The translations under genes and the position numbers were made by a program. The notes beneath the pieces were generated by a model, which searched no databases, was not told where the DNA came from, and saw only the letters and a list, made by a program, of their open reading frames with translations. From the IMG/VR virus record IMGVR_UViG_3300032144_000195, positions 1 to 24,808 of that record: a stretch of DNA of 24,808 nt, one strand, 5' to 3'. The first letter of the stretch is position 1. The number at the start of each line of letters is the position of its first letter. Below are positions 9,668 to 16,154 of this stretch, one piece after another. The DNA is from a virus.

Positions 9668-10414
9668 TCAGGCCGCTACCGGCTGATATTGCAGCAGCAC
9701 ATCCCACACGGCCTTGCGCGCGACCGGGTTGCCCTTGAACACGTCCGACAGCACAGGGTGGCCGCCATAGGTCGTCTTGATCCATGTTTCCAGATCGACC
9801 GTTACCGCCTGTTGGGCACAAAGCTGCGTCCACAGCTTTGCAAAGTCTTCATAGCTCGGGGTGCCCGCGGGGGGAGGCGGCGGGGGCGGGGGTGCGGGCG
9901 GATACGACAGCGGGTTGTTCGGATCGACAGCAGGGGCCGATGCTCCACCACTTGCCGGTGCGGTAACAGTGGTTGCGGGTGCGCCAGCGGGCCGGGCCGG
10001 TGGCGGCGGGGGCGTAGGGTTCACGTTGCTGCCGCTAAGATAATGCGCCTCATACGCCTTGACGGCATCTTTGTCGCTGCCGCGGCGGCGACGCCATGAA
10101 CCATCGGGATTGCTGCCGGGCGCGGTGGCGGTGCCACTGTGGAAGCGCTCATCCCACGGTACGCCGCGGGCATCCACACGCGCCGTCAAATTGCCGGTGC
10201 TCGGGGCACCACCAAGCGCAGAGACAGGATCGGGACCAGTTGAAGGCGCGGCAGCGGGGGCAATAACGGGTGCCGGCGGCGGCGTAGGGTGCGAGCGGTC
10301 GACTTCGACGGCGGTGCGCTCGATATCGGCATGACGGGCGCGCATCGTTTCATAGATATCCAACAGCTTGCGTGCCTCATCGGCTGTCAGATCGTTGAAC
10401 CCCAGTTTGATCAT
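9668..10414 (-). CDS. Pro-rich phage protein with conserved central motif
   Basis: A 248-residue protein with three ordered parts separated by Pro/Ala linkers: an N-terminal helix (KLGFNDLTADEARKLLDIYE), a central module RGVPWDERFHSG...SWRRRRGSD (about 80-112) and a C-terminal helical domain (YEDFAKLWTQLCAQ and on). The central module recurs in phage proteins encoded near recombination genes; I recall this from memory and know no function. ATG 10414 has GAGAGG about 8 bases upstream; the longer TTG form overlaps the promoter region. First gene of the leftward replication operon. Confidence 0.7.
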   Translation of the reverse strand: MIKLGFNDLTADEARKLLDIYETMRARHADIERTAVEVDRSHPTPPPAPVIAPAAAPSTGPDPVSALGGAPSTGNLTARVDARGVPWDERFHSGTATAPGSNPDGSWRRRRGSDKDAVKAYEAHYLSGSNVNPTPPPPPARPAGAPATTVTAPASGGASAPAVDPNNPLSYPPAPPPPPPPPAGTPSYEDFAKLWTQLCAQQAVTVDLETWIKTTYGGHPVLSDVFKGNPVARKAVWDVLLQYQPVAA

Positions 10415-10429
10415 TTTATCTTGCCTCTC

Positions 10430-10464
10430 TGTCGTTATGTCAGTATGTGTCAATTAATGTCAAA
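10430..10464 (+). repeat. 10-bp-phased TGTCA repeats in the divergent promoter region
   Basis: TGTCA occurs at 10438, 10448 and 10458, exactly one helical turn apart, with a partial TGTC at 10430. On the minus strand the outermost repeat forms TTGACA (10464-10459), a perfect -35 box, with CATAAC 18 bases on, probably the promoter of the leftward replication operon. Phased sites on one face of the helix suggest a bound regulator; the protein is unknown. Confidence 0.5.
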
Positions 10465-10509
10465 AACGGGGATAGCACCGATGGGCACACGATGCAACGA
10501 TAATTTCAT

Positions 10510-10521
10510 CCCCTTGAGGGG
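10510..10521 (+). promoter_or_regulatory. Helicase ribosome-binding site in a small hairpin
   Basis: CCCCTTGAGGGG is a perfect palindromic stem (4 bp) with a TTGA loop. The GAGGGG at 10516-10521 is the Shine-Dalgarno, 6 bases before the ATG at 10528. Partial masking is possible, but the stem is short. Confidence 0.4.
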
Positions 10522-10527
10522 CATTGC

Positions 10528-12963
10528 ATGACACTACGACCATATCAACAAAAATTATCGGATGATATATGCGAGGCTAGGGAGCGCGGCGGTCGATCCA
10601 TTCTTGCAACGATGGCCACCGGGGGCGGTAAAAGTGTGATGACTGCTCATCGTGCTCGTTTATGCCGTGGTGCGTCGGTGATCATGGCTCATCGTCAGGA
10701 ACTGGTTTATCAGCTCAGCATGGCGTTGGCACGCGATGAGATAGATCATCGTATCATGGCCCCGGATGCGGTTGTAAAATTTATAATTGAAAAACAGATA
10801 GCGGAATTCAACCGCAATTATGTTTATGAGCGTGCGCAACATACGGTGGCATCGGTCGATACGCTGCTCGCGCGGGCCGATAAATTGGATAATTGGCCAC
10901 GACAAGTTGAGCTCGTGCAGATCGATGAATGTTTTCCGAATGGAACATTGATTCGTACTCCTGATGGTGACGCACCGATTGAAAAACTTATGATCGGAGA
11001 TGTTGTAATCAGTGGCTCGTTTGTTCCACGTCGTGTGACAGCGATCATGCGTAACCCAATGCCTGATAAAATGGTGAATATTCGCTGGACGCATCATTCA
11101 TTAAATTGTACTACGCATCATCCCATCTGGACAAAGAACGGATGGGTTAATGCAGTAGATTTAAGGGAAGGTGATTATGTCCTGTGTCATTTGCGGGAAC
11201 CCAACACAAGGGGTTCGAAAGACATGCTCTCAAGCATGTCGCAACAAAGTATCATCGCAAACGATGAGTCGAACCAATCTAAAGTATTGCTCGGAACGAA
11301 TGAAAACAAACAATCCGATGATGAAAGAAACATCACGGGAAAAAATGCGAGCAACACACAAGCGTATAGGTCATCAACCAAAGGTGAAAGGCGGAAACGG
11401 TCGCGAGCCGACCAAACCAGAGATGACGTTAAAATTCCTGTTTGGAATGAAACTGAATCATACGGTCACAACTGGCGTCCGCAAGGGATCGATTTACCCG
11501 TACCATTACAAACTGGACCTGGCGCTTCCGGAATTAAAACTGGCGTTGGAAGCGGACGGTTCAAGTCATTCGACACTGAAACGAAAGGAACAAGACCGAC
11601 GCAAGGACGAATTTCTGAATGGGTTAGGGTGGACCGTGTTGAGGTTTACCAATCAACAAATTATGAACGATCTGCACACGGTATTTCAGACGGTTTCGTC
11701 TACAATATCGAGGTTGAAACAGATCACACCTACATAGCTTCCGGGATAGTTGTTCACAATTGTCATCACGTGCTTGGTGGCGACCACATCAACAAGTGGG
11801 GCCGGGCATTCAATATCTTCCCCCAAGCGTTACGGATCGGGTGGACCGGCACCGGCATGAGGCCGGACCGCAAGCCGCTGCGATCGGCATTTGACAGTTT
11901 GGTGGTGGGTCCGACAACCGCCGATCTGCTCGCGCTCGGCGCTTTGTGCCCCTATCGTGTCTATGGGCCGCCGTCGTCCATCGATGTGGCCGGGCTCGCG
12001 GTCGGCGGCTCGGGGGATTACAGCGGGGCCGAGCTGCGCAAGCGCGCCCACAAGTCCACCGTCACCGGCGATATGGTGCAGCATTATCTCAAGCTGACAC
12101 CGGGGGCGGTCGGCATCGCGTTCCTGGTGGATGTCGAGCAGGCCAAGGAAACCGCCGAGCGATTCAACGCCGCGGGTGTGCCGGCCGCGTGGATGTCGAG
12201 CCGTGAGACGGATGACCGTACCCGCGTCCGCACCATGGAAGCCCTGCGCAACGGCGCGATCAAGCTGATTTGCAACGTCGATCTGCTCGGTGAGGGTGTG
12301 GACGTGCCCCGCGTCGAGGTGGTGCTCGACGGCCGCCCCACCATGTCGCTGGTGCGGTATCTTCAAGTTTTCGGCCGGCTGTTGCGCACCTACCCCGGCA
12401 AGCGGGAGGGTGTGTTTATCGATCTGGTCGGCAACGTTGTGCGCCACGGGCTGCCCGATACCCCGCGCACCTGGTCACTCGACGTGCCCGAGAAGCGTAA
12501 GCGCACCGAGAATGACGAGACCGCGCTCAAGGCGTGCCCGCAGTGCTTCCAGGTGTTTGAGCGGTTCCGCGCGTGCTGTCCGCATTGCGGTTTCAAGCCC
12601 ACCCCGGCCGGCCGCTCACGGCCCGAGGAAGTAGATGGCGACCTCACCGAGTTCTCCGAGGAACTGCTGGCGCGATTGCGCGGGCAGGCCGCTGAGATCA
12701 TGGGACCATGCCCGCCCGGTGTTGCGCCGTATGTGGTGCAGAACTGGAACGCGCGGGCCGTGACACAGCAGCAGTTACGCGACGCGATGGCGACATGGCA
12801 GGGTGTGCAGGAAACGCAGCACGGCCACGATATGGCGACGGGCTACCGGCTGTTTTATCACCGGTTCGGCATCGATGCGGCCACAGCACAGACACTCGGG
12901 CGGAAACAGGCGGCGGATTTATACGAGAGGGTATGGGAGAATATAAACCATGAAACCAGGTGA
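10528..12963 (+). CDS. SF2 DExH helicase, interrupted by an intein
   Basis: An 811-residue precursor; removing the 277-residue intein leaves a 534-residue helicase. Motif I is TGGGKS (31-36). Motif II is cut by the intein: IDE ends at residue 134 and CHH starts at 412, so splicing restores IDECHHV. Motif III-like GWTGTG follows, then motif VI QVFGRLLR (613-620). A C-terminal Cys cluster (CPQCFQVF...CCPHCG, about 670-690) probably binds zinc. The order resembles phage UvsW/T5 D10-type and SNF2-like helicases used in recombination, repair or origin melting. It starts the rightward operon with the VRR-NUC nuclease and primase. N-extein codons are AT-richer than the C-extein. Confidence 0.88.
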   Translation: MTLRPYQQKLSDDICEARERGGRSILATMATGGGKSVMTAHRARLCRGASVIMAHRQELVYQLSMALARDEIDHRIMAPDAVVKFIIEKQIAEFNRNYVYERAQHTVASVDTLLARADKLDNWPRQVELVQIDECFPNGTLIRTPDGDAPIEKLMIGDVVISGSFVPRRVTAIMRNPMPDKMVNIRWTHHSLNCTTHHPIWTKNGWVNAVDLREGDYVLCHLREPNTRGSKDMLSSMSQQSIIANDESNQSKVLLGTNENKQSDDERNITGKNASNTQAYRSSTKGERRKRSRADQTRDDVKIPVWNETESYGHNWRPQGIDLPVPLQTGPGASGIKTGVGSGRFKSFDTETKGTRPTQGRISEWVRVDRVEVYQSTNYERSAHGISDGFVYNIEVETDHTYIASGIVVHNCHHVLGGDHINKWGRAFNIFPQALRIGWTGTGMRPDRKPLRSAFDSLVVGPTTADLLALGALCPYRVYGPPSSIDVAGLAVGGSGDYSGAELRKRAHKSTVTGDMVQHYLKLTPGAVGIAFLVDVEQAKETAERFNAAGVPAAWMSSRETDDRTRVRTMEALRNGAIKLICNVDLLGEGVDVPRVEVVLDGRPTMSLVRYLQVFGRLLRTYPGKREGVFIDLVGNVVRHGLPDTPRTWSLDVPEKRKRTENDETALKACPQCFQVFERFRACCPHCGFKPTPAGRSRPEEVDGDLTEFSEELLARLRGQAAEIMGPCPPGVAPYVVQNWNARAVTQQQLRDAMATWQGVQETQHGHDMATGYRLFYHRFGIDAATAQTLGRKQAADLYERVWENINHETR
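11162..11176 (+). promoter_or_regulatory. Internal ribosome-binding site of the nested endonuclease
   Basis: TAAGGGAAGGTGATT lies immediately before ATG 11177. AGGTGAT matches the 3' end complement of 16S rRNA in register, placing AGG 5 bases from the ATG, the ideal spacing. The same bases encode the conserved REGDY of the intein N-terminal splicing domain, so they serve two purposes. Confidence 0.7.
11177..11737 (+). CDS. Vsr/DUF559-like homing endonuclease nested out of frame in the intein
   Basis: A 186-residue protein in the +1 frame relative to the helicase/intein. N-terminus: zinc finger CVICGNPTQGVRKTCSQAC (C3, C6, C17, C21). Then RMKTNNPM and KVKGGNGREP, segments typical of the DNA-binding part of phage/intron homing nucleases. 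C-terminus: Vsr-like fold, YKLDLALPELKLALEADGSS, followed by H, DRRKDEFL, and GWTVLRFTNQQ. This fits the EDxHD/DUF559 endonucleases known from fractured genes with split inteins and from group I introns. ATG 11177 is preferred over a GTG 6 bases upstream because of the Shine-Dalgarno. It would cut intein-free helicase alleles and drive spread of the intein. No in-frame nuclease exists in the intein. Confidence 0.85.
   Translation: MSCVICGNPTQGVRKTCSQACRNKVSSQTMSRTNLKYCSERMKTNNPMMKETSREKMRATHKRIGHQPKVKGGNGREPTKPEMTLKFLFGMKLNHTVTTGVRKGSIYPYHYKLDLALPELKLALEADGSSHSTLKRKEQDRRKDEFLNGLGWTVLRFTNQQIMNDLHTVFQTVSSTISRLKQITPT
11221..11240 (+). repeat. Perfect hairpin inside the nested endonuclease
   Basis: GACATGCT (11221-11228) and AGCATGTC (11233-11240) form an 8-bp perfect stem with a CTCA loop, 44 bases past the endonuclease ATG, within the codons of its zinc-finger Cys residues. 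It may be chance or may affect translation of either frame. Confidence 0.35.
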
Positions 12964-13156
12964 CCGTGTGCGGCTGAGCCGCGCCACCAATAATACCGTG
13001 GGGCGTGCCGAGCGGTTTTTTACGCGGATGGGGACCGTGCAGGCCGTTAAGCGGCGTGTGGGGCGCGGTGCGGTGCGGGTGCTATGGGACGGCTGCAAGC
13101 ACCCTGAGTTTTTGCATGTGCGACTGTTGGAGGTGAGTGATGAAAACCGAAACTGA
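12950..13156 (+). CDS. KOW/SH3-like small basic protein
   Basis: A 68-residue protein. The beginning MKPGDRVRLSRATNNTVGRA and later MGTVQAVKRRVGRGAVRVLWDG read as a small beta-barrel of KOW/SH3 type, a fold that often binds nucleic acid. It overlaps the helicase end by 14 bases, and the end of the gene overlaps the nuclease start by 17 bases. The family is inferred from the GDRV...GTV...RVLWDG pattern. Confidence 0.7.
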   Translation: MKPGDRVRLSRATNNTVGRAERFFTRMGTVQAVKRRVGRGAVRVLWDGCKHPEFLHVRLLEVSDENRN

Positions 13157-13874: not shown

Positions 13875-16154
13875 GTGACAAAGAAGTGGGAATTTATGAG
13901 CAACCGGCCTGCTATGCCCGCAGGGCTGCCCGCATGCAAACAATACATCAATTTCAAACTAGTTCCAAGAGCTCGCGGCGGAACCGATAAATTCCCCCTT
14001 GATCAGGCCGGCAATGTTATCGATGCGCACGACCCAAATATGTGGGTTGATGCGGCCACAGCGTGGGCGTCACCGTGGAACAGGCACGGTATCGGGTTTG
14101 TTGGCACACCCGGATGGATTCTTATCGACCTCGACAAGGCGCTGCGTGACGGCGTGTGGTCGCCATTGGTGGCCGAGCTGCGCACGAAACTATGGGGTGC
14201 ATATGCCGATGTGAGCCCGAGCGGCACCGGTTACCATCTGATCATGCGCGGCACGCTGCCGGATGGGCACAAGTGCAAAATGGAATGGGGCGAAATCTAC
14301 AGCCTCGGTCGGTTCCTCACGATCACCGGCAATCATGCATCAGGGGACGCTAATTGGGACGCCAGCGACCACACTGAGTGGCTGGTCGAGCGGCTCGGCT
14401 TGCGCGGTGAGCCGCTGCCCGCGCTGCCCGATGAGGGTCGCAGCGAGCTATGGCGCGGCCCCGAGGATGATGATGCGCTGCTGGCCATCATGCTGCGCCA
14501 GGGGGCGCATACGCCGGACCAAATGTTTGCCGGGCATGCCACCGCGCGGCAGGTGTGGGAGATGGACGCGGAGGCGCTGGCGCGATCGTGGCCGGCGGAT
14601 AACCGGTCGGATGGCCTGGCGTTCGATCACAGCAGCGTGGACATGGCTGTGATGTCGCATCTGTCGTGGCTTACCGGCCGTGACATCGAGCGCATGCAGC
14701 GGCTGTTCGAGCGCTGGCCTGGCTATCGGGCGTGGAAATATCAGCGATCGCGCGGCTATCACATGTGCCGGATACTCGCTCGCGGCACGACCAACAAACA
14801 TGTGCTGGGTGAACGCACCACGGCGCTGGTGGGGCGTGAGGCTGCGCAAGACGGTGATGTGGTGGCCGAACCCGGCATGTTTCTCGCGTATATGCCGAAC
14901 CGTACGTTTTTCCATCGCCCGACGCGCAAGTTTTGGCCGGTCGGCAGTGTGGATGATTTGATTGGTTCGATCGCGTTACCGGATGGCAAAACGATGAAGG
15001 CGAGTAAATGGCTTGCGCGCAATCACCGGATTGACCAGCTTGCATGGTGGCCGGGCGCGGGTGAGATTATTGAGGGATGGTCACTCGTTGAAGGTGGCTG
15101 GACCGAATCACGCAATAACCGTGTTCTCAACACCTATTTGCCACCCGTGCCACCGCAGCCTCGGCCCGGCGTTACCTCCGACCCATGGATAAATCATCTA
15201 CGCATAATATATCCGCAGCATGTCGAGGTCATTCTTGATTGGATGGCATTCGTTGCCCAAAATCCCACGGTTAAAATAAACTGGTGTTTGGTGTGGGGTG
15301 GTTCACAAGGCATCGGCAAAGATAGTATGTTTGCGCCGCTTAATTGGGCGGTCGGTGAATGGAACTGGCGGTCGGTTTCACCCGAGCAAATCATGGGTGA
15401 GGTTTATAACGATTACCTTGAATGTCGTGTTCTTATCATTGATGAAGCCAAGGACATCGGTGGAGAAAACCGTTATCAATTTTATGACAAAACCAAAACG
15501 ATAATTACAGCGCCACCAAACTTCCACAATATCAGATCGATGTATGCGGATCGGCGCAAATCCCCCAATCTTAACGCAACGATCATTACCACAAATTATA
15601 GAACGGGCGGCTTATATCTTCCGGCTGATGATCGACGGCATTATGTGATGTTTAGCGATCTCACGCGAGCAGCGTTTAGTGAAGCGTATTGGTCCGCATA
15701 TTGGGAATGGATGAATAACGGCGGTGCGGATGCATGTGCCGCGTTTTTATTGGCGCGTGATGTGAGCCGTTTCAACCCCAAGGCACCACCCACACAGACA
15801 CCGGAATTTTGGGATATGGTTGAGGGTGGTCAACCGTCTGAACAAACAGACCTTAGCGATTTGGTCAGAGGGTTAGACGGATTTATTTTATCGTCATTGG
15901 CTGGCCGGGCAATGATGGGTGCCGGTGATCGCTCATTATACGATTGGTTGTCTGATAAAAAGAACGGCACCAAGATCATGCGAGCTCTCAATGATGCCGG
16001 TTATATTTTAGTAAAGAATCCTAATGAACAGCGAGATGGTCGATGGAAAATAAACGGTAAGTTTGAAAAGATATATGTTCGTCAAAATTATACCCTTGAT
16101 GACCGTATGAAGGTGGTTGATACCATAAAAAGTGGTAGGTTACCCCCTAAATAG
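13875..16154 (+). CDS. Primase-polymerase/D5-type helicase fusion
   Basis: A 759-residue protein. The N-terminal half is an archaeo-eukaryotic primase/PrimPol domain: WILIDLDKAL (catalytic D85 and D87), SPSGTGYH (114-121), then EIYSLGRFLTITGNH. The C-terminal half is a superfamily 3/DUF5906-like helicase: GGSQGIGKDS (Walker A, about 475-484), RVLIIDEAKD (Walker B, about 518-527) and TTNY as a possible sensor. It primes and unwinds DNA at the fork for the family B polymerase. Starts: GTG 13875 (GAGGG upstream) or ATG 13896 (MSNRPAMPAG); either is possible. GC content falls sharply in the helicase half. The origin-like repeat region follows directly. Confidence 0.87.
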   Translation: MTKKWEFMSNRPAMPAGLPACKQYINFKLVPRARGGTDKFPLDQAGNVIDAHDPNMWVDAATAWASPWNRHGIGFVGTPGWILIDLDKALRDGVWSPLVAELRTKLWGAYADVSPSGTGYHLIMRGTLPDGHKCKMEWGEIYSLGRFLTITGNHASGDANWDASDHTEWLVERLGLRGEPLPALPDEGRSELWRGPEDDDALLAIMLRQGAHTPDQMFAGHATARQVWEMDAEALARSWPADNRSDGLAFDHSSVDMAVMSHLSWLTGRDIERMQRLFERWPGYRAWKYQRSRGYHMCRILARGTTNKHVLGERTTALVGREAAQDGDVVAEPGMFLAYMPNRTFFHRPTRKFWPVGSVDDLIGSIALPDGKTMKASKWLARNHRIDQLAWWPGAGEIIEGWSLVEGGWTESRNNRVLNTYLPPVPPQPRPGVTSDPWINHLRIIYPQHVEVILDWMAFVAQNPTVKINWCLVWGGSQGIGKDSMFAPLNWAVGEWNWRSVSPEQIMGEVYNDYLECRVLIIDEAKDIGGENRYQFYDKTKTIITAPPNFHNIRSMYADRRKSPNLNATIITTNYRTGGLYLPADDRRHYVMFSDLTRAAFSEAYWSAYWEWMNNGGADACAAFLLARDVSRFNPKAPPTQTPEFWDMVEGGQPSEQTDLSDLVRGLDGFILSSLAGRAMMGAGDRSLYDWLSDKKNGTKIMRALNDAGYILVKNPNEQRDGRWKINGKFEKIYVRQNYTLDDRMKVVDTIKSGRLPPK

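Follow-up and report, generated by a model that had tools for sequence, protein, structure and literature searches.

Split inteins in fractured phage genes reportedly carry Vsr-like nucleases between their halves. A different arrangement is the ShiLan domain, an out-of-frame HNH nuclease insertion in a phage gene, in which the authors find no splicing domain and for which homing is inferred from a patchy distribution (PMC11855218). ShiLan is the closest published case to the locus described here and the only described relative that we found. No description of an intein with an overlapping-frame endonuclease was found in the open-access literature; most subscription papers and preprints were outside our search, and a prior description is possible.

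The DNA analyzed here is the virus record IMGVR_UViG_3300032144_000195 from IMG/VR, whose 24,808 nucleotides, taken as a whole stretch, are called the window. We consider it very likely that this DNA carries a mobile intein with a homing endonuclease gene nested in the +1 frame of its own coding DNA; the two frames, their predicted folds, their conservation, the avoidance of stops and the precise empty sites are computational results, and splicing, internal initiation, cleavage and homing are inferred. The features are as follows.

10528..12963, + strand: DNA helicase gene (DExH, RadD/SSL2-like; ResIII, Helicase_C, phrog_16), with the intein in frame.
10528-10929 and 11761-12960, + strand: helicase exteins, flanking the intein.
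10930..11760, + strand: intein of 277 residues, C1...HN/C+1, helicase codons 135-411 (Hint_2, Intein_splicing, TIGR01443).
10930..11199, + strand: N-terminal Hint half (splicing blocks A and B); AlphaFold2 residues 1-90, pLDDT 92-98; family HMM 10930-11199.
11168..11175, + strand: Shine-Dalgarno-like AAGGTGAT, directly 5' of the nuclease ATG, in the EGDYV codons; -11.8 kcal/mol.
11177..11737, + strand: putative homing endonuclease ORF of 186 aa with an ATG start, in the +1 frame; treble clef and DUF559/EDxHD.
11200..11613, + strand: intein-frame linker, predicted disordered; AlphaFold2 residues 91-228, mean pLDDT ~50.
11614..11760, + strand: C-terminal Hint half (blocks F and G); AlphaFold2 residues 229-277 folded, most blocks at pLDDT 90-97.

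A first-pass annotation of the window had read the helicase frame as open across a complete intein, and this was confirmed. The frame is stop-free across 811 codons (10528-12963), and profile searches matched both the helicase domains (ResIII, E=1e-12; Helicase_C, 1e-9; phrog_16 DNA helicase, 1.5e-69) and the intein (Hint_2, E=4e-8; Intein_splicing, 9e-8; TIGR01443 C-terminal block, 7e-7). The insertion point lies in Walker B (motif II) of the helicase, exactly at QIDE/CHH, between DE and CHH. Intein-less helicase homologues read continuously through this site, and a helicase spanning at least 80% of the joined exteins was found in 430 phage records. The first residue of the intein is Cys and the last two are His-Asn, with Cys at +1; residues C1, H64 (block B TxxH) and N277 are invariant across 67 relatives. 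The AlphaFold2 model consists of two Hint halves (pLDDT ~97) and a linker (~50) without secondary structure, and Foldseek matched it to gp41-1, Mtu RecA and other inteins with E-values down to 6e-7, the solved structures that resemble the predicted fold being mini-inteins. No Rfam match was found at E<=1 in 10400-13000, which gives no sign of a group I or group II intron. The region 10930-11760 has the sequence marks of an intein, a predicted Hint fold and an in-frame insertion at a conserved site; its splicing activity is inferred. Elsewhere in the window, 13875-16154 encodes a primase/polymerase-like protein with DUF5906 and an NrS-1 polymerase HBD-like domain.

The +1 ORF spans 11165-11737 and offers a GTG at 11171 as an alternative start to the ATG at 11177. 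Its product had been described as a Vsr/DUF559-like nuclease, and a profile search agrees (DUF559, E=2e-13). A Cys4 treble-clef-like N-terminus of zinc-finger type precedes the DUF559 nuclease domain. The AlphaFold2 model is confident (pLDDT 92.6), and by structure comparison it resembles PDB 3hrl (Z 13.1), I-Bth0305I (Z 11.6) and Vsr (Z 9.8). Residues Asp114, Glu125, Asp127, His131 and Asp140 are invariant in 73/73 sequences. The predicted product meets the criteria of the EDxHD/DUF559 fold and of its conserved acidic and His residues; cleavage is inferred.

The two genes share their DNA unevenly. The start of the nuclease falls on the codons of EGDYV, the closing motif of the N-intein, and its end within the C-intein block, so that 11614-11737 is genuinely double-coding: it specifies the C-terminus of the nuclease and also ~40 residues belonging to the folded C-intein half. 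The helicase frame between the Hint halves had been described as a polar linker lacking nuclease motifs. It is correct that no nuclease is encoded in this frame, but the ~138 residues of the linker are nuclease codons read out of frame and hold no independent protein information.

In the mechanism that we propose, ribosomes from the helicase start would read through to give a helicase-N-Hint-disordered linker-C-Hint-helicase precursor, whose two Hint halves would pair and splice in cis, restoring the Walker B DE-CHH. Other ribosomes would initiate internally at the ATG at 11177, at the end of the N-intein, and yield a free EDxHD nuclease with its zinc-finger-type N-terminus. It would cleave helicase genes that lack the intein at a putative target close to the Walker B codons, and repair would copy the intein in. 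Selection would then act on the nuclease protein, on both Hint halves and against stops in the filler frame.

A tblastn search of the nuclease against phage records returned 40 records, all with the match within the helicase gene or within a same-position gene listed under other names. The helicase-intein frame is open and the nuclease lies in +1 in CP-T1, MR14, phi673, several Vibrio phages and the IMG/VR contigs L001-L006. The nested ORF is unannotated in every named phage record examined, so gene callers have missed a homing endonuclease family. A profile scan of IMG/VR reported 304 relatives, 80 of which were fetched, and a scan of bacterial assemblies with profile A2 added 8 loci from several phyla; no matches came from a scan of bacterial assembly contigs with a single protein as query. 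The resulting nuclease-based set has 113 loci: in 107 the nuclease is nested in +1 within an open host frame, 2 are truncated by a contig edge and 4 (3 distinct) are free-standing. These locus counts include near-duplicates; at 80% amino-acid identity, the 107 nested loci collapse into 71 clusters. Sets gathered through the nuclease favor intact nucleases. A scan with the N-intein only, blind to the nuclease and unbiased in that respect, gave 80 loci, 54 with the nuclease in +1 and 0 with it in another frame. Many contigs are shared by the two sets, which together hold 105 distinct nested nuclease DNAs.

The insertion is at DE/C in nearly all relatives, and roughly a hundred further sequences, most of them viral, preserve the +1 layout. 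Homologues whose nuclease is read in frame would have refuted the first-pass annotation; there is no such copy among the nested relatives, which number 107 loci in the nuclease-based set and 54 in the N-intein set. Neither was a split version of host gene or intein seen, the host frame being open through the N- and C-blocks in all nested loci. The earlier suggestion of an intermediate between fused and split inteins is not borne out: with nuclease identities as low as about 35%, a spread over several bacterial phyla and no split version, the layout is a stable lineage of long standing, from which mini-inteins lacking the nuclease and free-standing nucleases derive. In five contigs (L052, L088, L047, L053 and L087), the intein-nuclease unit sits at Asp-Glu motifs of hosts that look unlike the RadD-type helicase. 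The nested nuclease at L085:3402-4013, possibly a decaying copy, is interrupted by a stop in its N-terminal region, and no start was found upstream of this.

Alleles with and without the intein were compared in related phages. The helicases of Vibrio phages CP-T1 and vB_VchM-138 are 96.4% identical, and that of CP-T1 is longer by exactly 1059 nt, which is the intein; phages 1.194 and 234P10 form a second intein/empty pair with an exact length difference. The empty allele reads DE/AHH (vB_VchM-138) and the invaded one DE/CHH (CP-T1; L198 vs L007), and this difference at the +1 Cys suggests, on sequence grounds, co-conversion with the intein. Vibrio phages K389, K459, PS65A.1 and 13VV501A (L200-L203) carry at the same Walker B site a mini-intein of 143-150 residues without nuclease, so that related Vibrio phages present an allelic series of empty, mini and full forms. 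Mini-inteins without nuclease were likewise found at this site on contigs L139, L150 and L162. On two contigs (L044:3355-5626 and L096:3468-5533), a free-standing relative of the nuclease lies directly upstream of an intein-less helicase with an uninterrupted Walker B.

It remains conceivable, though we judge it unlikely, that the nested nuclease serves a non-homing role, for instance in attacking competing phages or in regulating the helicase. No one function is assigned to the DUF559 family, which leaves room for this, and so do the free-standing copies of L044 and L096, which also fit intronless homing or competitor exclusion. Such a role is opposed by the precise insertion into alleles otherwise 96% identical, by the mini-inteins without nuclease at the same site and by the resemblance of the fold to the homing enzyme I-Bth0305I. 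We retain the reading of a hidden nuclease that probably spreads the intein.

How the nuclease would be translated was approached through its start region. In the window, the Shine-Dalgarno match at the nuclease ATG is strong, and over the family the Shine-Dalgarno energy is -6.4 versus -4.9 kcal/mol for controls (p=4e-4), which is only a modest excess. A nuclease-frame ATG lies between +238 and +280 from the intein start in 53/71 clusters, compared with 7/71 for the third frame; the remaining 18/71 have none in this start window. A programmed +1 ribosomal frameshift, making an N-extein-N-intein-nuclease fusion without any internal start, could also explain why the nuclease is always exactly in +1, and in about a quarter of the relatives the nuclease frame is indeed open well into the N-intein. 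We nevertheless find it improbable: in 52/71 clusters, the nuclease frame is open only after a stop at or beyond +200, near the start codon, which leaves little room to shift, and the clustering of ATGs near the nuclease start and the Shine-Dalgarno match in the window both speak against it. The signals favor internal initiation over programmed frameshifting but do not prove it, and translation of the nuclease is inferred.

The openness of the intein frame was evaluated by permuting synonymous codons within each nuclease. A host-frame stop arises only where a nuclease codon with T as its last base is followed by one that starts with AA, AG or GA. For the window alone, the intein frame stayed stop-free in 181 of 1,000,000 permutations (6.1 stops expected; P=1.8e-4), close to the chance of about 1e-4 put forward by the first-pass annotation. 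All 71 clusters have 0 intein-frame stops compared with 7.7 expected each, and T-ending codons in dangerous contexts, expected 764 times, were observed in 0/2753 cases. Control codons from the C-exteins of the same genes were unbiased (24.5% vs 23.9%). Another 23 distinct cases, contributed by the N-intein scan, are equally free of stops (6.7 expected each), so that 94/94 distinct or clustered cases are stop-free where about 7 stops are expected each. The equivalent frame of free-standing relatives contains 29, 9 and 17 stops. Chance openness of the intein frame was ruled out by the permutations together with these stops. In the tree, the free-standing copies are dispersed among nested ones and beside different neighbors (one pairing at 99/94, two weaker), a position that fits escape from the intein followed by loss of the constraint.

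The same data bear on the possibility that the nuclease is real but that the open intein frame merely follows from codon composition, with a gene that is in fact split or RNA-spliced. A linker that drifts and lacks a conserved fold would be in keeping with this. Set against the stop-free record of the tested cases, the 9-29 stops of free-standing relatives, the invariant Hint residues C1, H64 and N277, the absence of an Rfam intron match and the lack of split versions, it becomes very hard to uphold. That a single recent indel or sequencing error displaced a formerly fused in-frame nuclease has no support outside this one locus, hardly deserves any credence and is already refuted, as the same frame relation recurs in 105 distinct nuclease DNAs, including separately sequenced Vibrio, Pseudomonas and Corynebacterium phages, without an in-frame copy among homologues.

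Substitutions were then counted in each frame. In 17 close pairs, mean identity is 78.6% for the nuclease and 59.6% for the linker from the same DNA, and the Hint halves average 75% and 86%. Substitutions are concentrated at third positions of nuclease codons, which are first positions of intein codons (e.g., 2/0/27). In relatives, the rate of change at nuclease third positions falls from 0.348 to 0.157 over the C-Hint overlap (Wilcoxon p=8e-5), as expected if both frames matter there. These data show a constrained nuclease and a drifting linker, with both frames constrained where the nuclease overlaps the C-intein. When the distances of nuclease, intein and extein were compared in a Mantel-type analysis (0.42, 0.43 and 0.34), the parts did not separate, and the result was not used as evidence. 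The central inference of the first-pass annotation, an unsplit intein hosting a separate, dual-coded homing endonuclease, is supported by the profile, homologue and constraint analyses alike, with translation inferred.

Nucleases of another family are hidden in other inteins. The inteins of terminase large subunits at L193:2033-3172, L194:1988-2980, L195:2213-3127 and L196:2459-3133 contain a hidden, unannotated HNH nuclease. All four come from isolated phages, and the nuclease lies in +1 in the first two (Gordonia phage Clown and Synechococcus phage S-EIVl) and in +2 in the last two (Tetrasphaera phage TJE1 and Acinetobacter phage Highwayman). Inteins on three IMG/VR contigs also have an HNH-type ORF in an alternate frame (L148:3589-4455 and L183:3772-4584 in +1, L158:3755-4450 in +2), with origins apparently independent of the DUF559 family; Pfam gives only weak support for HNH in L183 (E=0.057), though the motif is visible. 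Stop avoidance is individually significant in 5/7 HNH cases (P 0.026 or less) and not in two +2 cases (TJE1, P 0.23; L158, P 0.48). Contig L172 carries an in-frame LAGLIDADG intein without a DUF559-type nuclease. The +2 ORFs of L172 and L186, which overlie in-frame LAGLIDADG-type inteins, look composition-driven and were left out of the count of hidden nucleases.

We think it likely that overlapping-frame homing endonucleases are a general, unrecognized architecture of phage inteins with several origins. On this interpretation, an EDxHD/DUF559 lineage occupies Walker B of helicases and related P-loop NTPases, without exception in +1, and HNH lineages are in +1 or +2, in terminase inteins (Clown, S-EIVl, TJE1 and Highwayman) and on L148, L183 and L158. 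If so, inteins annotated with a featureless middle may encode a separate nuclease, and the translation of hidden nucleases such as that of ShiLan becomes testable. Overlapping genes under joint, unequal selection would be a third way to join a splicing element and a homing nuclease, beside fusion and splitting. The locus would also provide a clear example from nature of overlapping genes, one frame encoding a functional protein and the other being selected, over most of its length, only to stay open, with the free-standing relatives, whose frame is not kept open, as a built-in control.

Compared with known systems, this locus resembles conventional LAGLIDADG or HNH inteins in having an endonuclease between the N and C halves of the Hint domain and an insertion in a conserved active-site motif. 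In those inteins, however, the nuclease is read in the Hint frame and belongs to the protein that is spliced out, whereas here it would be a separate protein from an overlapping frame, its translation being inferred. With split inteins (Dassa et al. 2009) it has in common an intein associated with an EDxHD-type nuclease that is independently translated (by inference here), but neither the host gene nor the intein is split here, and the nuclease is located within the intein, in an overlapping frame. The predicted nuclease has the fold and the invariant acidic and His residues of Vsr and of EDxHD enzymes such as I-Bth0305I (PMC3943268; PDB 3r3p). While I-Bth0305I belongs to a mobile group I intron, the nuclease of this locus lies over an intein frame and no intron was detected. 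ShiLan (PMC11855218) likewise is a stop-free, in-frame insertion in a phage gene that hides an endonuclease in another frame; its HNH nuclease is in the third frame and the authors find no intein or intron splicing domain there, whereas the present locus combines a complete Hint domain with an EDxHD nuclease in +1 and has about 100 relatives.
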